Assembly: GCF_003576405.1 (NCBI RefSeq)
Contig: NZ_QWGT01000002.1
Location: forward strand, 1 to 41,408
Reading direction: 5' to 3'
From: Clavibacter lycopersici
GTDB taxonomy: Bacteria > Actinomycetota > Actinomycetes > Actinomycetales > Microbacteriaceae
DNA: 41,408 nt
Every line of letters starts with the position of its first letter. Positions within the stretch are counted from its first letter, which is position 1. Made by a program: the position numbers and the translations under genes. The notes under the pieces are model-generated. The model saw only the letters and a program-made list of their open reading frames with translations, was not told the origin of the DNA and did not search any database. Of this stretch, positions 2,912 to 37,630 are shown piece after piece.

Positions 2912-3705
2912 CAGCCCGCCTTCGCGAACGACGTGCCGGCCAGCGCGGCGGGCGTGGATGCGTGGGGCTGGTACGACTCGAAGACGCTGTAGGCGACCAC
3001 GCGCTCGGCGGCCGAGAAGAGCGGGTTGCAGCTCGTCATCGTGAGGATGCGGTCCCCCGGCTGTGCGTCGGGTGCCTGGGGCACCTCGTCGAGCACCTCG
3101 ACTCCGGTGGGCTTCACGTACTCGAGTGTACGGAAGCGGTACGTGTACCAGCCGTCCTGCGTCTCGACGACGATGGCATCCCCCACCCGCAGGTCCGTGA
3201 TCTGGTTGAACGGCTTGCCGTAGGTGGTGCGGTGGGCCGCGACGGCGAAGTTGCCCACCTCGCCCGGCATCTGCGTCTCGCGGTAGTGCCCGATCTTGCC
3301 GAGGTTCAGCACGTTGCCGAGGCCGACGCCGGTCGCGACCGGCACCACGTAGTCCGGCCCGAAGCGCGGGATGTAGATGTTCCCGAAGTCGGTGGCGTCC
3401 GACGCGGGCGCCGCGGTGATGACGGGATCCCCCGGAGCCGCGGGCGAGGCCGTCGGGTCGGGGGAGGCCGCCGCGTCCGGCGTCGCCGAGGCCCAGCTCC
3501 GGCTGTTCTCCAGGGCCTGGTCCCGCTGTCCGCTGCTGACGACGATGTCGTTGAACCACAGCTGCCACCCCAGGAACAGCATGATGAGCACCCCGGCCGT
3601 GAGGAGCAGCTCGCCCAGGACGCCGACGGTGCCGAGGAGCGCATCGCCCCGCCTGCCGCGGCGCCGCGCCGCGCGGCGGGTGGGGGCAGGATCCTGAGCG
3701 CTCAT
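2911..3705 (-). CDS. Class E sortase
   Basis: A 264-residue transpeptidase expected to anchor secreted proteins to the cell wall. A basic N-terminus (AARRRGRRG) is followed by one transmembrane helix (about 22-50), a Ser/Pro/Ala linker (about 65-105), then the sortase barrel. Catalytic residues are visible: His158 in AAHRTTYGKPF, Cys226 in TMTSCNP and Arg235 in AAERVVA, the arrangement of actinobacterial class E enzymes. The start at 3705 is chosen because TACAAT ends six bases before it and there is no ribosome-binding site. An in-frame ATG at 3729 would lie upstream of that hexamer. No sortase substrate with a sorting signal is visible in the window. It is divergent from crgA. Confidence 0.93.
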   Translation of the reverse strand: MSAQDPAPTRRAARRRGRRGDALLGTVGVLGELLLTAGVLIMLFLGWQLWFNDIVVSSGQRDQALENSRSWASATPDAAASPDPTASPAAPGDPVITAAPASDATDFGNIYIPRFGPDYVVPVATGVGLGNVLNLGKIGHYRETQMPGEVGNFAVAAHRTTYGKPFNQITDLRVGDAIVVETQDGWYTYRFRTLEYVKPTGVEVLDEVPQAPDAQPGDRILTMTSCNPLFSAAERVVAYSVFESYQPHASTPAALAGTSFAKAG

Positions 3706-3711
3706 GTGCCG

Positions 3712-3717
3712 ATTGTA
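3712..3717 (-). promoter_or_regulatory. Candidate -10 element for a leaderless sortase transcript
   Basis: TACAAT (read on the minus strand) matches TANNNT. Exactly six bases separate it from the sortase ATG, so transcription would start at or next to the start codon. No clear -35 hexamer is seen. Confidence 0.55.
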
Positions 3718-3798
3718 GGTGGCCCGCATGCACGCGAGGCCGCCACCGAGGCCCCGTGGAGCCGGGCGTCCTCCCGGCCCGGTGGAGGAGGGTACGGC

Positions 3799-3804
3799 TA
3801 GAAT
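3799..3804 (+). promoter_or_regulatory. Candidate -10 element for leaderless crgA transcript
   Basis: TAGAAT is followed by six bases (CGCCGC) and then the crgA ATG. No ribosome-binding site is present. It shares a 105-bp divergent control region with the sortase promoter. Confidence 0.6.
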
Positions 3805-3810
3805 CGCCGC

Positions 3811-4050
3811 ATGGCCCGCGACAAGACGACGAGACCCTCCCGCCAGGAACGCGTGCGCGACGAGGACGCCCCGAACCCCGTGTGGTTCAAGCCCATCATG
3901 TTCGGCTTCATGCTCGTGGGACTCGCGTGGCTCATCGTCTACTACGTCAGCCTCAACGCGTTCCCCATCCCCGACCTCGGCGTCGGCAACATCCTCATCG
4001 GCTTCGGCCTCATCCTCGTCGGCTTCCTCATGACCACCAGGTGGCGTTGA
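3811..4050 (+). CDS. crgA: Cell division protein CrgA
   Basis: A 79-residue inner-membrane protein of the CrgA family (formerly UPF0233), which helps assemble the actinobacterial septum by binding FtsZ, FtsI and related proteins. The N-terminus is charged (about 1-27), and two transmembrane helices (about 30-48 and 58-76) flank a short external loop with FPIPDLG. The protein ends TTRWR. Length and layout are normal for the family. It is monocistronic: its own likely leaderless promoter lies upstream, and a strong terminator starts 14 bases after the stop. The pknB-sortase-crgA grouping matches other actinobacterial origin regions. Confidence 0.95.
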   Translation: MARDKTTRPSRQERVRDEDAPNPVWFKPIMFGFMLVGLAWLIVYYVSLNAFPIPDLGVGNILIGFGLILVGFLMTTRWR

Positions 4051-4064
4051 CACCAGCGCGAACC

Positions 4065-4101
4065 GAAGAGCCCGTCACCACCCGCTGGTGACGGGCTCTT
4101 C
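4065..4101 (+). terminator. Rho-independent terminator of crgA
   Basis: A perfect 16-bp stem, GAAGAGCCCGTCACCA (4065-4080) with TGGTGACGGGCTCTTC (4086-4101), surrounds the loop CCCGC. A partly T-rich stretch follows (TACGTCT). Confidence 0.9.
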
Positions 4102-4135
4102 TACGTCTAGGGCCGCTGAGGACCGGCGCTCAGTG

Positions 4136-4352
4136 TTGTCCACAGCTCCCCTGTGCACAACGCTCCACACATGTGGAGAACATCGAGCACCCCGCGGGCG
4201 AATCCCACCGGCAGCGAGGGTTACCCGCGGAAGCCCATGGCTGTCGCGATGCGTCCACCGGTGCCCGGTCTCGCGCACCGCACGGCACGTCTCCTGGGTG
4301 CCCCTAATCACACGCGTGTAACTATCCCCACTGTGGACTGGCCTGTGGATAA
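4136..4352. other. Cluster of DnaA-box-like sites in a convergent intergenic gap
   Basis: This non-coding gap lies between the crgA and rhomboid terminators. Sites seen: TTGTCCACA at 4136-4144 (exact actinobacterial DnaA box); its near match TTGTGCACA on the minus strand at 4152-4160; TCCACA core at 4164-4169; TTCTCCACA on minus at 4172-4180; TCCACA core on minus at 4333-4338; and TTATCCACA on minus at 4344-4352 (exact E. coli-type box). A 10-bp palindrome ACACGCGTGT lies at 4310-4319. No gene or promoter is needed here because both flanking genes point inward. The binding role is inferred from motif matches only. Confidence 0.55.
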
Positions 4353-4403
4353 CCTCGCTCGCGCCGGACGGCCGGCCGGATCCGACGCCCCGGGTACGAC
4401 GAA

Positions 4404-4427
4404 CGCGCCGCCCCCGAGGGCGGCGCG
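4404..4427 (-). terminator. Terminator of the ppiA-rhomboid operon
   Basis: CGCGCCGCCC (4404-4413) pairs perfectly with GGGCGGCGCG (4418-4427) around a 4-base loop, 16 bases past the rhomboid stop on the minus strand. TTCGTCGT follows in that direction. Confidence 0.75.
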
Positions 4428-4443
4428 CTCACGTGCGGTCAGA

Positions 4444-5307
4444 TCAGAGGGCGACGGGGAAGACGGCGGCCGCCACCAGGATCGCGACGGCGACGCCCAC
4501 GAGGGAGCCGATCTGGGCACCTCGCTGACGGGCGTCCCGCGTCCGCAGCAGGACGAACGCGACGAGCGCGCCCGTGACGAGGCCGCCGACGTGGGCCTGC
4601 CAGGAGACCCCCTGGATGACGAAGCCGAGCAGCAGGTTGACCGCGATGATGCCGAGGAGCGGGCCGACGTTGCCGCCGAGCTTCCGGGCGAGGACGAAGT
4701 AGCCGCCCATGAGCCCGAAGATCGCGCCGGAGGCGCCGACCACGGCCTGCAGCGGCTCGCCCATGGCGGCGCCGATGAGCTCGACGCCGAGGGATCCGCC
4801 GAGCGCCGAGATCAGGAACAGGGCGAGGAAGCGGGCGCGTCCGAGCATGGGCTCGAGGACGCGGCCGAAGACGAAGACGGAGAGCATGTTGAAGACGATG
4901 TGCAGGATGCTCGACGGCGAGTGCGTGAACGCGCTCGTGAGCATGCGCCACGGCTCGTAGTCGCCGGAGGCGACGCTGCCGTACACGGGCGCGAACCACA
5001 GCGACGTGGTCACGTAGTCGCCCACGACGGGCAGCACCTGCAGAATCCAGACCACGGCGCAGACCGCCATGATCGCGTACGTCACGACGGGAGCGGAGCT
5101 CCGCGTCATCCGCGTGACGAACGAGGCCCGGGTGCGGGGAGCGGTGCGACGCTGCTCCTTCATGTCCTCCGGGCAGATCACCCCGACGGCGGCCGGCGTC
5201 TGGCACTCGGGGCAGATGGTCCGCCCGCATCGCTGGCACAGCACGAAGCTCTGCCGGTCGGGGTGCCGGTAGCAGCGGTCGGCCGCCGTACGGGGTGAGT
5301 CGGTCAT
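4444..5307 (-). CDS. Rhomboid family intramembrane serine protease with N-terminal zinc-binding segment
   Basis: A 287-residue polytopic membrane protease that cuts within or next to transmembrane segments. The N-terminus carries a B-box-like set of metal ligands (Cys12, His15, Cys24, Cys27, Cys32, Cys35, Cys45). Six or more hydrophobic helices follow (about 75-285). Catalytic Ser193 lies in GASGAIFG and its partner His239 in WQAHVGG; HIVFNM is the usual oxyanion-side motif. The ATG overlaps the last base of the ppiA stop (TGATG), so the two genes are coupled. Substrates cannot be read from the sequence. Confidence 0.93.
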
Positions 5308-5846
5308 CAGACCTTCTCGACGGTGACGCTCTCGATGACGACGTCCTCGCGGGGACGGTCGCGGCCGTCGGTCGGGACGGCGTTGAGCGCGTCGACGACC
5401 TTCTTGGACGCGTCGTCCGCCACCTCGCCGAAGATCGTGTGCTTGCCCTGGAGCCAGGTGGTGGGGGCCGTGGTGATGAAGAACTGCGAGCCGTTCGTGC
5501 CGCGGCCGCCCTGGGTGCCGGCGTTGGCCATGGCCAGGATGTAGGGCTTCGAGAAGTCGAGGTCGCGGCTGATCTCGTCGTCGAACTGGTAGCCGGGGCC
5601 GCCCGTGCCCTGACCGAGCGGGTCGCCGCCCTGGAGCATGAAGTCCTTGATGATGCGGTGGAAGACCACGCCGTCGTAGAGCGGGTCGGTCGACTTCTTG
5701 CCCGTCTGGGGGTGGGTCCACTCCTTCTCGCCGGTGGCGAGGCCGACGAAGTTCTCGACGGTCTGGGGTGCGTGGGACCCGAAGAGGTTGAGGACGATGG
5801 TGCCGTGGTTGGTCGTCATGGTGGCGACGTGAGTGTGCGCAGACAT
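5307..5846 (-). CDS. ppiA: Peptidyl-prolyl cis-trans isomerase (cyclophilin type)
   Basis: A 179-residue cytoplasmic cyclophilin that speeds proline isomerisation during folding. No signal peptide is present. Active-site marks are the Arg and Phe in [17 protein letters not shown], the glutamine and Phe in NGSQFFIT, and the Trp and His in [13 protein letters not shown]. The gene lies next to gyrase and tRNA-Ala/Ile, as in mycobacteria, where it is called ppiA. It heads a two-gene unit with the rhomboid gene. The start at 5846 has no ribosome-binding site. GACCAT lies exactly six bases upstream and may be a weak -10 for a leaderless message. Confidence 0.95.
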
Positions 5847-5903
5847 GGAGCAATGGTCTCACGGCGGAGCTGGGACTCGGCGGACGCACAGCGTCCGTCG
5901 TGT

Positions 5904-5931
5904 TTGCCCGCAGAGGCACCCGTGCCAGACT
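5904..5931 (+). promoter_or_regulatory. Weak promoter candidate for the tail-anchored protein gene
   Basis: TTGCCC (5904-5909), 16 bases, then CAGACT (5926-5931). A short dyad, CGGACGC-ACA-GCGTCCG (5881-5897), lies just upstream between the divergent genes and could be an operator. Motif match only. Confidence 0.3.
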
Positions 5932-5967
5932 GGGATTCCTGGCGAAATCACACCGATGGAGGTCCCC

Positions 5968-6594
5968 TTGGGTCTGTCACGCAAGAACAAGAAGGAGTTG
6001 GCGAAGCTCCGCACCCACGCGGCCGCCGTCCTCAAGGAGCAGCGCGAGGTCCTCGACCGGGCCAACGTCGTCGTGGCCGAGGCCGCGCACACCGCGCGCA
6101 AGCTCTCCGACCAGCACGTCGTCCCCGCCGTCAAGCGCGGTGTCGACGACCACATCCGTCCCGGCTACGAGGCGGGCGCCGAGCGCGTGCGCACCGTGGC
6201 CGACTCGGCCTACAAGGGCTTCACGCACACTGTCCTGCCGGCCGTCGCCGGTGCCGCCGGATCCGCGGTCGCCGCGACCGAGGGCATCCGCAACAGCAAG
6301 CAGGTGAAGGACGCCGTCAAGAAGGCGAACAAGGTGTCGTCCAAGGCCCAGGAGTTCGGCAAGCACTACGTCGACAACGGCCGCTCCTACGTCGGCCGCT
6401 ACGTACCGCAGGTGGCGCCCGCGAAGAAGGGCCTCGGCTTCGGCGGAGTGGCTCTCATCGCGCTCGGCGTCGTCGTGGTCGGCGGGGTCGGCTACGCGCT
6501 GTACCAGACGTTCCGCGCGGACGACGACCTGTGGATCGCCGACGACGAGCCCGAGGCCGTCGACGCGACCGCGAAGGACCAGCCCGCGAGCTGA
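5968..6594 (+). CDS. Unrecognised Ala/Lys-rich tail-anchored membrane protein
   Basis: A 208-residue protein I do not recognise as a named family. Residues 1-150 are predicted mostly helical and rich in Ala, Lys and Val, with possible coiled-coil stretches ([11 protein letters not shown] onward). One glycine-rich transmembrane helix lies near 155-178 ([20 protein letters not shown]). A short acidic tail follows ([15 protein letters not shown]). Streptomyces has proteins of similar layout near gyrA, but homology is not shown here. The TTG at 5968 is chosen because GGAGGT at 5958-5963 is correctly placed for it. The ATG at 5956 would be part of that same binding site and would add four residues. 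It is divergent from ppiA and ends in a strong terminator. Confidence 0.75.
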
Positions 6595-6613
6595 TCGCCG
6601 CACAGCAGCAGAC

Positions 6614-6649
6614 CGAGGGCCCGGACACCGAGAGGTGTCCGGGCCCTCG
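6614..6649 (+). terminator. Rho-independent terminator
   Basis: A perfect 16-bp stem, CGAGGGCCCGGACACC (6614-6629) with GGTGTCCGGGCCCTCG (6634-6649), closes on a GAGA tetraloop, 19 bases after the stop of the tail-anchored protein gene. Confidence 0.88.
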
Positions 6650-6726
6650 TCGTGCCGCGGGGACGACGGGCGAGCGGCTCGAGCCGGGACGGCGAGCACG
6701 TGGGAGACCCGACGACGGGCGAGATG

Positions 6727-6799
6727 TGGAGTCACGGGGAATCGAACCCCGGACCTCCTGCTTGCAAAGCAGGCGCTCTACCAATTGAGCTATGACCCC
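6727..6799 (-). tRNA. tRNA-Ala (anticodon TGC)
   Basis: A complete 73-base cloverleaf on the minus strand. The anticodon stem CCTGC/GCAGG holds the loop TTTGCAA with anticodon TGC. The T-arm contains GGTTCGATTCC. The acceptor stem GGGGTCA/TGACTCC places a G3-U70 wobble, the alanine identity element. The discriminator is A. No CCA is encoded after it (CAT follows), so the cca product must add it. It lies downstream of tRNA-Ile, as in other actinobacterial origin regions. Confidence 0.96.
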
Positions 6800-6879
6800 G
6801 ATCGGCGAGCCTCGGATCGCGCTGCGATCGACCGGCTCGATTCCCGCCATGCCCCTGGATCGTGCGAATCCGGAGGTGT

Positions 6880-6956
6880 TGGTGGGGATACCAGGATTTG
6901 AACCTGGGACCTCTTCATTATCAGTGAAGCGCTCTAACCAACTGAGCTATATCCCC
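6880..6956 (-). tRNA. tRNA-Ile (anticodon GAT)
   Basis: A 77-base tRNA on the minus strand, including an encoded CCA end. The anticodon stem CTTCA/TGAAG holds the loop CTGATAA with anticodon GAT. The acceptor stem GGGGATA/TATCCCC is fully paired. The T-arm contains GGTTCAAATCC. The 3' end reads A-CCA at 6883-6880, unlike the neighbouring tRNA-Ala. Confidence 0.96.
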
Positions 6957-6958
6957 AT

Positions 6959-6990
6959 CGGGCAGGACTACGTTACCGTACGCCTGCCCG
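6959..6990 (-). terminator. Hairpin between DUF3566 gene and tRNA-Ile
   Basis: CGGGCAGG (6959-6966) pairs with CCTGCCCG (6983-6990) around a 16-base loop. It could terminate the gyrase operon. The loop also contains TAACGT on the minus strand (6975-6970), 13 bases before the tRNA-Ile 5' end, which could be its -10. The two roles would compete, so the call is tentative. Confidence 0.4.
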
Positions 6991-7004
6991 TTTCTCCCAA
7001 TCGG

Positions 7005-7404
7005 CTACGCGTTGGTGAAGCCGACGAGGACGCCGCCCGTGATGCGCACGCTCAGGTTGTAGAGCAGCGCCGCCACGGCTCCGAGCACGGTGCCGACGAC
7101 GATGTTGAGGACGGCGACGACGATCGCGAACCCGAGCACCTGACCCAGGCCGAAGACGTCCTGGAGGGAGAAGTCCGCGGATCCGGACACCTCCTGGAAC
7201 AGCTGGTCGACCGTGCCGAACACGTTCGTGGTCTGGAGCACGACGTAGATGAGGAACGTCGCCACCACGGTGATGATGCCGAGCACCACGGAGAAGAGGA
7301 ACGCGAGCTTCAGCGCCGACCAGAAGTCGACGTACACGAGCTTGAGACGCACCTGCTTGGTGGTGGTGGCCCGCGACGACTTCTTCGCGAGCTTCTCGGC
7401 GACA

Positions 7405-7412
<8 letters not shown>
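7005..7412 (-). CDS. DUF3566 family membrane protein
   Basis: A 135-residue protein. The basic N-terminus ([16 protein letters not shown]) is followed by two transmembrane helices, about 35-60 ([27 protein letters not shown]) and 85-115 ([28 protein letters not shown]). It ends GVLVGFTNA. Proteins of this family (mycobacterial Rv0007 region) are found just after gyrA in actinobacteria; their role is not established. The ATG lies inside the end of gyrA, giving an 8-base overlap. GGAAAGGG upstream serves as the ribosome-binding site, so it is co-translated with gyrase. Confidence 0.9.
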
Positions 7413-10092
<2,680 letters not shown>

Positions 10093-16199: not shown

Positions 16200-16308
16200 G
16201 TTGTGGACCCCTCGATGAGCGGAAGATTTGTCGGTCAATGCTAGCCGTGCCGTGGGGGGCACCCGGGACCCGGGATCCGTCCACACCCTGAGGTTCTTGG
16301 GCGACATC

Positions 16309-16341
16309 CAATGAAGGGTTTAAGGATCAATAGTCTTAACC
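16309..16341. other. AT-rich candidate DNA unwinding element
   Basis: The stretch from CCAATGAAGGGTTTAAGG to AGTCTTAACC is the most AT-rich segment of oriC. It lies 12 bases from the exact DnaA box at 16353-16361, as expected for strand opening by DnaA. Confidence 0.55.
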
Positions 16342-16640
16342 GCTGTGGAATCTGTGGACAACTCCCCGCGTCCCGGTGGTTGAGCGGGAACTACACGTCT
16401 GGAACTTGTGGGACGGGTGTGGAGCGGCCTGGGGACTCGGCGGAACGGCGCCGCCGCCACGACGCCGGTTCCACAGGCGCGGTCCGCGAACCCACATCCG
16501 CTCCGGCGGTTCTCCACAGTTATCCACACTCTGTGCACACTGTGGGGAACGGCGCTCCAGGACGGATCCGAGCTCGTGCGCGGCCGCATGACCCCTGGTT
16601 CGACGTCGTCCGACGTCGTGCGCCGGCCTCCGTGCACGCA

Positions 16641-16672
16641 GAAGGGGCCGGACCCCGCGGTCCGACCCCTTC
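16641..16672 (-). terminator. Terminator of dnaA
   Basis: A 14-bp stem, 16641-16654 with 16659-16672, and a 4-base loop, 37 bases past the dnaA stop. One position is a G-U wobble when read as minus-strand RNA (GAAGGGGUCGGACC with GGUCCGGCCCCUUC) but a C-A mismatch on the plus strand, which supports the minus orientation. Confidence 0.8.
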
Positions 16673-16708
16673 CTCTCGCCTGGCACGCTCGAGCACGCCC
16701 AGCGGGCG

Positions 16709-18139
16709 TCACATCTTGCTGTAGCGGTGGTTCTGCTTGATGCGGCTCGTGAGCTCGGTCACCTGGTTGTAGATCGACCGCCGCTCCTTCATGAGCTCGG
16801 TGATCTTCTTGTTGGCGTACATGACCGTCGTGTGGTCGCGGTTGCCGAACAGCTGGCCGATCTTGGGCAGCGAGAGGTTCGTCAGCTCGCGGCACAGGTA
16901 CATGGCGATCTGCCTCGCGGTGGCGACCGCCTGCGAGCGGGACGAGCCGTAGAGGTCGTCGACCGTGAGCTTGAAGTAGGCCGCGGTGTGGTTGATGATG
17001 TCGACCGGCGCGATGACGTTGTCCTCGTCGAGCGTGATCAGGTCCTTGAGCACCGTCTGCACGAGCGCGAGGTCCACGGGCGTCTTGTTCAGGCTCGCGA
17101 ACGCCGTGACGCGGATGAGCGTGCCCTCGAGCTCGCGGATGTTCGAGGTGACCTTGGTGGCCATGTACTCGAGGATGTCGTCCGGCACCTGGAGCTTCTC
17201 GCTCTGCGCCTTCTTCCGCAGGATCGCGATGCGCGTCTCGAGGTCGGGCGCCTGCACGTCGGTGATGAGGCCCCACTCGAAGCGCGAGCGCATCCGGTCC
17301 TCGAAGCCCGTGAGGTGCTTCGGCGGCAGGTCGCTCGTGATGACCACCTGCTTGTTGTGGTCGTGCAGCGTGTTGAAGGTGTGGAAGAAGGCCTCCTGGG
17401 TGGAGTCCTTGCCCTGGAGGAACTGGATGTCGTCGATGAGCAGGATGTCGTTGTCGCGGTAGCGCGACTGGAACAGCGACGACCGGTTGTTGGCGATCGA
17501 GTTGATGAAGTCGTTGGTGAACTCCTCGGAGCTCACGTACCGCACCCGGATCCCGGGGTACAGGCTGATGGCGTAGTGGCCGATGGCGTGCAGCAGGTGG
17601 GTCTTCCCGAGGCCGGAGTCGCCGTAGATGAAGAGGGGGTTGTACGCCTTGGCCGGCGCCTCGGCTACCGCGACCGCCGCCGCGTGGGCGAAGCGGTTGG
17701 AGCCGCCGATGACGAACGTGTCGAAGCCGTACTTCGGGTTGAGACGCGAGTCGCCGCGGGAGGGGGACGCCGGGAGGCCCGGGTTGTCCGTGGGCGCGGT
17801 GATGGTCGGGGTCTCGATGTACGGCTGCTCCGCGGGCTCGGGGTGCTGGGCGAACGCGTCCTGCGCGATCTCGGGGTTGACCACGATGGCGAAGTTGCTG
17901 ACGCCGGCCGCCTCGTCGAGCGAGCCGATGGCGTTCAGCAGGGGCACGCGGATGCGCTGCTCGAGCATCCCGCGGGTGAGGTCGTTCGGGACCTCGAGGT
18001 AGAGGGTGCCGGTCATCACGCCCTTGGGCTCCACCAGGCTGATGAAGCCGTGCAGCTGCGGGGTGATCCGGTCGTCCGCCGTGAGGGCGGAGAGCACCTT
18101 CTGCCAGATCGCGTGCGTCGGGTCGGAGCGGTCGGACAT
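16709..18139 (-). CDS. dnaA: Chromosomal replication initiator DnaA
   Basis: A 476-residue AAA+ initiator that binds DnaA boxes and opens oriC. Domain I is about 1-90. A variable linker (about 95-140, Pro/Glu/Thr-rich) follows. The AAA+ core has Walker A GDSGLGKTHLL (Lys179) and Walker B ILLIDDIQFL (Asp236, Asp237). The C-terminal DNA-binding domain carries the signature around FGNRDHTTVMYANKKI. The ATG at 18139 has GATGGGGAAAC upstream as ribosome-binding site. DnaA boxes upstream (18324-18332 and 18473-18481) suggest autoregulation. The gene ends in its own terminator before oriC. Confidence 0.97.
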   Translation of the reverse strand: MSDRSDPTHAIWQKVLSALTADDRITPQLHGFISLVEPKGVMTGTLYLEVPNDLTRGMLEQRIRVPLLNAIGSLDEAAGVSNFAIVVNPEIAQDAFAQHPEPAEQPYIETPTITAPTDNPGLPASPSRGDSRLNPKYGFDTFVIGGSNRFAHAAAVAVAEAPAKAYNPLFIYGDSGLGKTHLLHAIGHYAISLYPGIRVRYVSSEEFTNDFINSIANNRSSLFQSRYRDNDILLIDDIQFLQGKDSTQEAFFHTFNTLHDHNKQVVITSDLPPKHLTGFEDRMRSRFEWGLITDVQAPDLETRIAILRKKAQSEKLQVPDDILEYMATKVTSNIRELEGTLIRVTAFASLNKTPVDLALVQTVLKDLITLDEDNVIAPVDIINHTAAYFKLTVDDLYGSSRSQAVATARQIAMYLCRELTNLSLPKIGQLFGNRDHTTVMYANKKITELMKERRSIYNQVTELTSRIKQNHRYSKM

Positions 18140-35882: not shown

Positions 35883-36080
35883 CCATCCACAGGCCCGGCC
35901 CTAGCAGACGAACTCTCAAGCCCTGGTGCAGACAAGTTTTCCCACATCGGGTGTGGAACTCGCGGTGCCTGGTCACAGGCTGATTCGGCGCCGAAATCCA
36001 TTCGTAGTGCACAGGCTTGTCCCCAGGTACTCCACACGATGCCCGGCGTTTCGCCCACTTTGTCCACACCCCCGTCCACA
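35883..36080. other. Cluster of DnaA-box-like sites upstream of dnaB
   Basis: Within the 454-bp rplI-dnaB gap: CCATCCACA (35883-35891), TTTCCCACA (35938-35946), TTGTCCCCA (36017-36025, one mismatch), TACTCCACA (36029-36037), TTGTCCACA (36060-36068, exact actinobacterial box) and CCGTCCACA (36072-36080). A TGTGGA core lies on minus at 35952. The last two sites end just before the candidate dnaB promoter. DnaA binding is inferred from motif only. Confidence 0.5.
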
Positions 36081-36087
36081 GGTGCAT

Positions 36088-36117
36088 TTGGTGCCGCACG
36101 GGGTCGATCCATATCGT
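36088..36117 (+). promoter_or_regulatory. Candidate dnaB promoter
   Basis: TTGGTG (36088-36093), 18 bases, TATCGT (36112-36117), giving a leader of about 127 nt. Two DnaA-box-like sites lie immediately upstream. Confidence 0.4.
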
Positions 36118-36250
36118 GGGGCAGCGCCCGTCGAACGGGTCGCCGAGGACCCGCGAGCGGTCCGGCCGACGCCGTCCCGAGCGGTGTCGGAGGTCCGAGC
36201 TAGAACGGTCGTGCGGGCGCATCCGCCCAGCCGACCGAGGGGAGCCGCAC

Positions 36251-37630
36251 GTGTCCATCGCCCATCTGGGTCTCGCCGGCGAACGGGACGAGCGCGACAA
36301 GCGCGCCGGTCACGAGCGCACGCCGCCGCACGACCTCCTCGCCGAGCAGAGCGCCATCGGCGGCATGCTCCTCAGCAAGGACGCCGTGGCCGACGCGGTC
36401 GAGCAGGTGCGGGCGATCGACTTCTACATCCCCAAGCACGAGATCATCTTCGACGCGATCCTGTCGCTGTACTCGCACGGCGAGCCGACGGACGTCATCG
36501 CGGTCACCGACGAGCTCACGAAGCTCGGCGAGCTGAGCCGGGCCGGCGGCGCGGACTACCTCCACACGCTCACGAGCGTCGTGCCCACGGCGGCCAACGC
36601 GGGCTTCTACGCGTCCATCGTCGCCGAGAAGGCGGTGCTGCGGCGCCTGGTGGAGGCCGGCACCCGCATCGTGCAGATGGGCTACGCGAGCGAGGGCGAG
36701 GTCGTCGACCTCGTGAACAACGCGCAGGCGGAGATCTACGGCGTCACCGGCGGCGTCGAGGCCGAGGACTACGTGCCGCTCACGGACGCGGTCACGGTCG
36801 CCATCGACGAGATCGAGGCGGCCAAGGGCAAGGACGGCCAGATGACCGGCGTGCCCACGGGCTTCGCCGACCTCGACGCGCTCACCAACGGCCTGCACCC
36901 GGGGCAGCTCATCATCGTCGCCGCGCGTCCCGCGCTCGGCAAGTCCACGCTCGCGCTCGACTTCGCGCGGGCGGCGAGCATCAAGTACGACATGCCCTCC
37001 ATCTTCTTCAGCCTGGAGATGGGGCGCAGCGAGATCGCGATGCGCCTGCTCTCCGCCGAGGCCTCCGTGCCCCTGCAGAGCATGCGCAAGGGCACCGTGG
37101 ACGCGCGGGACTGGACGACCATCGCGCAGACCCGCGGTCGCATCAACGACGCGCCCCTCTACATCGACGACAGCCCGAACATGACCCTCGTCGAGATCCG
37201 GGCGAAGTGCCGGCGGCTGAAGCAGAAGGTCGGGCTGAAGCTCGTCGTCATCGACTACCTGCAGCTCATGACGAGCGGCAAGAAGGTCGAGTCGCGCCAG
37301 CAGGAGGTCTCGGAGTTCTCGCGTGCCCTCAAGCTCATGGCGAAGGAGCTGCAGGTGCCGGTCATCGCGCTGTCGCAGCTGAACCGCGGTCCCGAGCAGC
37401 GCGCCGACAAGATGCCGGCCATCTCCGACCTCCGCGAGTCCGGGTCGCTCGAGCAGGACGCCGACATGGTCATCCTGCTGCACCGCGAGAGCGCCTACGA
37501 GAAGGACAACCCGCGCGCGGGCGAGGCGGACTTCATCGTCGCCAAGCACCGCAACGGCCCGACGGGCACCATCACGGTCGGGTTCCACGGGCACTTCTCG
37601 CGCTTCGCGGACATGCCTGCGGGCGGCTAG
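36251..37630 (+). CDS. dnaB: Replicative DNA helicase DnaB
   Basis: A 459-residue hexameric 5'-3' helicase of the fork. The N-terminal primase-contact domain (about 20-130, AEQSAIGGMLLSKDAVADAVE) is linked to a RecA-type motor with Walker A AARPALGKSTLALDFA (Lys231), IFFSLEMGRSEIAMRLL, Walker B LVVIDYLQLM, and SRALKLMAKELQVPVIALSQLNR with the arginine-rich finger region. No intein is present, although DnaB is a common intein host in actinobacteria. The GTG at 36251 is placed after GAGGGGA. Its position after rplI is conserved. Confidence 0.96.
   Translation: MSIAHLGLAGERDERDKRAGHERTPPHDLLAEQSAIGGMLLSKDAVADAVEQVRAIDFYIPKHEIIFDAILSLYSHGEPTDVIAVTDELTKLGELSRAGGADYLHTLTSVVPTAANAGFYASIVAEKAVLRRLVEAGTRIVQMGYASEGEVVDLVNNAQAEIYGVTGGVEAEDYVPLTDAVTVAIDEIEAAKGKDGQMTGVPTGFADLDALTNGLHPGQLIIVAARPALGKSTLALDFARAASIKYDMPSIFFSLEMGRSEIAMRLLSAEASVPLQSMRKGTVDARDWTTIAQTRGRINDAPLYIDDSPNMTLVEIRAKCRRLKQKVGLKLVVIDYLQLMTSGKKVESRQQEVSEFSRALKLMAKELQVPVIALSQLNRGPEQRADKMPAISDLRESGSLEQDADMVILLHRESAYEKDNPRAGEADFIVAKHRNGPTGTITVGFHGHFSRFADMPAGG

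Follow-up and report, generated by a model that had tools for sequence, protein, structure and literature searches.

Why should the short gap between two convergent genes, crgA and a rhomboid protease gene, be crowded with sequences resembling the binding sites of the replication initiator DnaA, 12 kb away from the chromosomal origin (oriC)? The question arises in Clavibacter lycopersici, a member of the family Microbacteriaceae in the class Actinomycetes, in a stretch covering positions 1 to 41,408 of contig NZ_QWGT01000002.1; this whole stretch of 41,408 nucleotides is called the window below. To our knowledge, it is poorly understood how Actinomycetes stop DnaA from firing twice, and we know of none of the Escherichia coli devices there. 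Our analysis reveals that the gap carries a rigid composite element in which a palindrome abuts three DnaA boxes, and that this element keeps its address between the same two genes in genomes across the class. A DnaA-directed, non-transcriptional role for it is well supported by sequence comparison, since the boxes stay conserved in a gap that otherwise mostly drifts, and the element probably helps to decide the timing of chromosome copying.

An exact DnaA box was defined as TTRTCCACA, and the assembly scanned comprises 3,129,032 bases in 620 contigs. The initial annotation had noticed in the gap (4102-4403) a cluster of two exact boxes, two near matches and TCCACA cores on both strands, and had guessed that well below one core should be expected there. 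Both statements hold: the gap contains two exact boxes, two boxes with one mismatch and five cores over both strands, and in 2000 dinucleotide shuffles of its 302 bases the mean is 0.152 for cores, 0.057 for sites with one mismatch or none and 0.001 for exact sites, with no shuffle attaining the observed five, four and two. In the number of sites with one mismatch or none, the gap comes first among 823 segments of 302 bases (four, versus three at oriC). The whole assembly holds ten exact boxes, versus two matches to the reversed motif used as a control. Six of the ten lie within the window: the crgA-rhomboid gap and the dnaA-dnaN gap have two each, a fifth precedes dnaA (18473) and the sixth is at dnaB (36060). 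Of the others, three stand at most 1 kb before a ribonucleotide reductase gene of a different contig, and a last, unassigned one is at C41:9996. When one gap was taken from each of 80 genera (23,493 bases), 75 exact boxes were counted, whereas 200 permuted motifs average 0.1 and never exceed 1; an exact box occurs in the gap of 62 of these genera and a box with at most one mismatch in 73. The locus shares two features with the DnaA-box clusters near oriC: several intergenic boxes that lie outside oriC in numbers exceeding chance, and a position close to oriC. The dnaA-dnaN region at about 16200-16710 bears out the proposed separation of 12 kb between gap and oriC, with dnaA about 12-14 kb from the element, and dnaN falls within the fetched stretch at 56 of 81 family loci, at a median distance of 11.7 kb.

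DnaA boxes were also seen at two other places in this genome. On contig C93 (locus L014), two repeated DnaA-box triplets (3824-3862 and 4745-4784), accompanied by NrdR-like boxes, precede a class I ribonucleotide reductase gene (4859-7486), which by analogy with E. coli nrdAB suggests DnaA control of the supply of deoxyribonucleoside triphosphates (dNTP). In the window, exact and near boxes (36017-36068) are found where the dnaB helicase reading frame (36017-37630) begins, and they probably lie upstream of the true dnaB start.

The impression of a loose group of boxes is right as to the clustering; however, the main object is a rigid composite of a palindrome and three boxes, and the initial annotation had overlooked three members of its best conserved part, namely the palindrome (4306-4323) and boxes I and II, which are weaker. 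The geometry was read from an alignment (A1) of 67 family copies, made up of the 71 rows given by the finder minus L077, L090 and L114 (another copy or a different order) and L141 (another family); ten loci were skipped by the finder. Throughout the family the order is palindrome, box I on the plus strand, box II and box III on the minus strand. In the window copy of the palindrome, AATCACACGCGTGTAACT, the symmetry is broken at four of 18 positions, and the inner ACACGCGTGT is perfect. Box I can be placed in 66 of the 67 copies (L119 being the exception). Counted from the first base of the palindrome's ACAC core, its start lies at 12 bp in 56 of them and at 13 bp in 10. From the start of box I to that of box II there are 10 bp in 41 copies, 11 in 13, 9 in 8 and 12 in 4, and the corresponding II-III spacing is 12 bp in 58 of 67. 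Box III reads TGTGGATAA on the plus strand, being exact in 52 of the 67 copies and within one mismatch in 63; the same reading of box II varies among TGTGGATAA, TGTTAATAA, TGTGGAATC and others, and box II of the window has two mismatches.

The initial annotation had proposed to compare close relatives, and loss of the boxes among them was named as the outcome that would speak against it. Within the genus, where crgA is present in 18 of 18 genomes searched, the boxes proved to be kept while most of the remaining gap drifts. Among 18 distinct gaps (21 loci), the 49 bp at 4306-4354 are on average 98% identical to the window with 84% invariant columns, and cluster A (4131-4183) is 81%, the hairpin behind crgA 84%, the hairpin behind the rhomboid gene 65% and three unmarked stretches of the gap 44-58% identical. 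At the family level, the element lies in the crgA-rhomboid gap at 74 of 81 loci (72 by script, plus L062 and L095 on inspection, their rhomboid boundary having been miscalled by the script), a count that is partly circular in that most of these loci also trained the profile, and its orientation is identical in 71 of the 72 loci counted by script.

To look beyond the family, a model (R1) of 54 positions, built on sequence only, was run on whole genomes regardless of position; all genomes searched belong to one phylum, the order and class samples contain own-family genomes, and the E-values are rough. In its own genome R1 finds the crgA-rhomboid gap with E 2.3e-14 as the single match at E <= 0.01. 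At this threshold its matches cover 276 of the 297 genomes sampled in the order and 191 of the 246 sampled in the class; E-values reach about 2e-13 in other families, including f81 (genomes mostly of 5-8 Mb) and f87 (1.2-2.2 Mb). Among the 54 best-scoring loci, which are the best matches and no random sample, crgA or the rhomboid gene is found in 51 (locus up to about 3 kb) and both in 47; the element stands between both genes in 44 of the 47 by script, and also in the contig-end loci L287 and L289 on inspection, with L293 having both genes and the element outside any convergent gap. Neither gene is found at L243 and L245, which are contig-end loci, or at L246, which is not. Of these 54 loci, 18 are from the own family (the window genome included), and outside it the address is kept in 33 of 36. 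In a second set of 20 loci, picked so as to sample many families, stretches of 6-14 kb around the match were inspected, and 18 of the 20 contain crgA or the rhomboid gene. A strict pattern of the composite occurs in 19 of 246 class genomes, versus none of 246 for the reversed control; the window's own genome is not matched by it because its box I begins with C. At ten loci of family f81 (L271, L272, L274, L278, L279, L281, L283-L286), DnaA boxes flank a shared palindrome on both sides, giving two mirrored elements in the crgA-rhomboid gap.

Table 1. Features of the crgA-rhomboid gap, its neighbours and oriC (positions in the window).
Feature	Position	Strand	Evidence or remark
Whole composite element (palindrome and boxes I-III)	4306..4357	+	sole R1 match at E <= 0.01 in own genome, 54.7 bits
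Palindrome AATCACACGCGTGTAACT, 18 bp, putative site of factor X	4306..4323	.	family consensus AATTACACNNGTGTAATT
Box I, CTATCCCCA	4322..4330	+	family consensus TTATCCCCA
Box II, CAGTCCACA	4332..4340	-	variable in family; faces box I with 1 bp between
Box III, exact TTATCCACA	4344..4352	-	12 bp from box II
Exact DnaA box TTGTCCACA, cluster A	4136..4144	+	motif scan
DnaA box with one mismatch, TTGTGCACA, cluster A	4152..4160	-	motif scan
TCCACA core, left half of inverted pair with 4172-4180, cluster A	4164..4169	+	
DnaA box with one mismatch, TTCTCCACA, cluster A	4172..4180	-	motif scan
crgA (79 aa), left neighbour, pointing into gap	3811..4050	+	Pfam CrgA 5.9e-27
Rhomboid protease gene, right neighbour, convergent with crgA	4444..5307	-	Pfam Rhomboid 1.2e-29
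Terminator-like hairpin of crgA, without T-run	4065..4101	+	-32.5 kcal/mol, z -8.5
Terminator-like hairpin of rhomboid gene, without T-run	4401..4430	-	-29.7 kcal/mol, z -3.1
oriC, dnaA-dnaN intergenic region	16200..16710	.	two exact boxes
Partial three-box module in oriC, without palindrome	16516..16548		

The palindrome, which we regard as the putative site of a factor here called X, offers a second line of evidence, as it recurs at other genes. Its exact form TTACACNNGTGTAA is present in 37 of 90 family genomes, and the reversed motif in 1 of 90; the gap copy of the window, TCACACGCGTGTAA, has one mismatch to it, and the exact copy of this genome is at whiB2. A tally of 48 exact family sites, based on gene matches and crgA coordinates and including L214, in a 2.5-kb crgA gap (L092), assigns 21 to the crgA gap, 18 to a whiB2-type gene, 6 to nrdHIE and 3 elsewhere (L207, L216, L340). 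In the class the exact word occurs in 26 of 118 genomes versus 5 of 118 for a control word, a weaker contrast than in the family. From 31 sites in the class, 25 new loci were examined, with crgA at 5, whiB2 at 11, nrdR at 7 (NrdR identity being backed by Pfam at all but L297 and L305) and no gene match at 2; of the latter, L308 adjoins a rhomboid-like frame and DnaA boxes, and L317, an incomplete locus, has flanks resembling the whiB2 sites. At the nrd sites the palindrome stands next to boxes that we take to be of NrdR type, often with DnaA boxes as well. The own whiB2-type gene has the Pfam domain Whib, and a TTGACG-17-TGTAAT promoter can be read there by eye, with the palindrome lying across its -10 side.

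Further arrangements of the palindrome were noted in passing. Before nrdR (apparently nrdR-nrdJ) in several class families, at L297-L300, L304, L305 and L314, it is accompanied by NrdR-type boxes and often by DnaA boxes. On the own contig C72 (L173, 1449-1462) a perfect TTACACCGGTGTAA covers the putative -10 region of the whiB2-type gene, and a TTACACCGGTGTAA-like arrangement at whiB2 is also seen in other genomes of the family and the class. Genome G067 has two more copies of palindrome plus DnaA boxes (L216 and L340), about 3.6 kb apart and 13-17 kb from crgA.

What might X be? In the gap it probably acts on the DnaA complex, because no gene there reads away from the palindrome. NrdR was considered and rejected, the boxes that we take to be its own sitting beside the palindrome at nrd promoters. 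MtrA is unlikely, its motif being a direct repeat (PMC6265350) and not a palindrome. One candidate is WhiA together with WhiB2, given that whiB2, a division-regulator gene, recurs at the sites, that in Streptomyces venezuelae WhiA and WhiB target nrdR, and that the WhiA motif GACAC and the half-site have ACAC in common; it may well be wrong, since the WhiA motif is described as asymmetric. WhiA binds the asymmetric GACAC and also binds upstream of nrdR in that species (PMC3781837), a figure legend in PMC4850268 gives nrdR as a place with a WhiB chromatin immunoprecipitation (ChIP) signal, and mycobacterial apo-WhiB2 binds the whiB2 promoter, as told in a review (PMC6282962); crgA goes unmentioned in the main text of PMC3781837 and PMC4850268. 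Of five words of the palindrome, only ACACCGGTGT turned up in the open-licence literature, in 19 papers; most of these are unrelated by title, but one deals with the oriC of Thermotoga.

Could the gap instead serve transcription, as a bidirectional terminator, a promoter or a small RNA, its box-like words being coincidental? The genes are convergent, and at the whiB2 promoter of this genome a -10-like hexamer, read by eye as described above, shares bases with the palindrome, which would suit such a role. The terminators that the initial annotation placed at both ends of the gap exist as predicted hairpins, although both lack T-runs, so that a scan for T-tract terminators reports none at the gap, and at 4401-4430 one of 200 shuffles folds equally well. 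These hairpins are separate from the element and flank it. The element itself has no consensus RNA structure in alignment A1 (RNAalifold) and folds no better than shuffles in the window (z +0.97); no Rfam match was found across 3000-5500 and no promoter-like site in 3700-4800, and an RNA element, terminator or promoter was rejected on these results. The orientation relative to crgA also differs within genus g85 (L221 and L223 versus L230 and L237), and two orientations in one genus are possible for a DNA site and hardly for a transcribed element. We find a transcriptional or RNA feature scarcely credible.

Taking the element as a DNA site, we think it probable that it is a cis-acting DnaA control locus, either datA-like or like the box clusters close to oriC of other bacteria, to which a factor X has been added. 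In such a mechanism DnaA would load on boxes I-III and X, if it is a single protein, on the palindrome, forming one specific complex that would serve transcription of neither crgA nor the rhomboid gene. As the element lies 12 kb from oriC, it would be doubled soon after initiation, and it would then most likely sequester DnaA, or convert or reset it, and so limit re-initiation. X would mark the promoters of whiB2 and ribonucleotide reductase too, for which reason initiation may be coupled through this locus to dNTP supply and division. A wider form of this proposal, in which a class-wide initiator-control locus of Actinomycetes joins DnaA and X in one complex, with X also at whiB2, nrdR (apparently with nrdJ) and nrdHIE, and sets initiation timing together with dNTP supply and division, is tentative, and the chances are rather against it.

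Three other DnaA-directed explanations compete with this control locus. A DnaA-reactivating sequence (DARS) would hold two ADP-DnaA molecules head to head on boxes I and II, release ADP and raise ATP-DnaA, with X replacing IHF and Fis. For this comparison the presumed DARS1 stretch was taken from the bioD-uvrB gap. The DARS2 stretch used borders the primer printed in PMC4585315 for deleting DARS2 boxes I-III. Box order and orientation in the element equal those of E. coli DARS1 and DARS2, the II-III spacing of 12 bp is that of both DARS cores, and, according to PMC5742627 and PMC8682772, DARS2 needs IHF and Fis sites beside its core and DARS1 a stimulatory region. However, the I-II spacing is 14 bp in both cores versus 9-12 bp in all 66 copies, box II matches poorly in many genera and in the window too, and the same module appears in oriC, which makes reactivation unlikely in our judgement. 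The module in oriC could be taken to mean that the element is a distal part of the origin, as the initial annotation had suggested, aiding oriC opening through looping or DnaA delivery, and the distances to oriC and dnaN given above would agree with it. This suggestion is weakened because the gap has no AT-rich unwinding region (lowest 40-base G+C 0.55, versus 0.40 in oriC); neither such an element nor dnaA adjacency, the marks of a bipartite oriC, is found, a full dnaA-dnaN origin is present and several genes lie between, so we hold it to be improbable. Finally, the gap may be a plain titration sink, for which any strong boxes near oriC suffice and the palindrome is an unrelated neighbour. 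The genome holds just ten exact boxes, so that two in the gap are a real share, and the extra boxes vary freely between genera; yet a sink needs no fixed order, and here the spacing is fixed and the palindrome abuts box I at an almost constant distance, for which a mere sink seems distinctly unlikely.

Several observations weigh against the control locus as we picture it. Box II is poor, being exact in 5 of 67 copies and having at least three mismatches to the consensus in 16. The three-box geometry is not unique to the gap in the sequences compared, as it occurs also in oriC: 47 of 53 oriC regions hold a partial module at E < 1 and only 2 of these extend to the palindrome, which suggests that the module serves DnaA assembly in general and would gain specificity from the palindrome. 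No dnaN is found in the fetched stretch at 24 of 81 family loci, some of which end at contig ends, and the position near oriC may simply be old gene order. Seven family loci have no element in the gap (L065, L070, L073, L075, L078, L126, L137), all from genomes of 0.9-2.4 Mb; in five of them (L065, L070, L073, L075, L137; genomes of 0.9-1.5 Mb) the crgA gap was seen to be just 0-37 bp long in four. When the element was sought elsewhere in nine small genomes, matches were obtained in G030 (2.7e-7, contig 1600-1654) and G081 (3.4e-6 and 7.0e-5), partial or weak ones in the others and none in G032. R1 leaves 21 of 297 genomes without a match at E <= 0.01 in the order sample and 55 of 246 in the class sample. 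In g90, a putative Streptomyces genus, the boxes near crgA are kept and the palindrome is not, in three loci. Judged from the seven family loci, the genomes without a match and g90, the element is dispensable in some lineages. The sign of its effect, negative or activating, is also not fixed by sequence.

As far as we have seen, what is new here is the composite itself, its fixed address across the class, and the palindrome that it shares with whiB2 and nrd genes. Being one conserved sequence of 50 bp with a constant address, the element is a concrete experimental target, and the palindrome provides a route to a regulator apparently linking initiation, dNTP supply and division. The locus was not found described in the open-licence literature, whether crgA or the rhomboid gene was sought together with DnaA boxes or the search was widened, when crgA occurred in one paper and there only among its references; the primary papers on the Streptomyces and Bacillus clusters lie outside that scope.

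Regarding known systems, box clusters near oriC were reportedly studied by Okumura in 2012 in Bacillus subtilis and by Smulczyk-Krawczyszyn in 2006 in Streptomyces coelicolor. The clusters of the latter are reportedly named D78 and H69, and crgA presumably lay on cosmid H69; one of them could be the crgA gap. According to PMC4585315 and PMC5742627, clusters of this kind lie close to oriC and are reported to repress untimely initiation. By that description the crgA-gap locus resembles them as a non-coding DnaA-box cluster outside but near oriC, and differs from them in being a fixed three-box module abutting a palindrome, at one conserved locus across the class. With E. coli DARS1 and DARS2 it shares the head-to-head boxes I and II, a box III that points the same way as II and, as counted for 58 of the 67 family copies, the II-III start spacing of 12 bp; unlike them, it has a I-II start spacing mostly of 10 bp (that of 14 bp occurring in 0 of 66), a palindrome in place of the IHF and Fis sites, and oriC close by. 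The E. coli datA locus is described in PMC5742627 as a non-coding DnaA-binding locus whose early doubling limits initiation. By that description the element would be alike, a non-coding and putatively DnaA-binding locus that is doubled early, and a datA-like role is our leading guess for its function.
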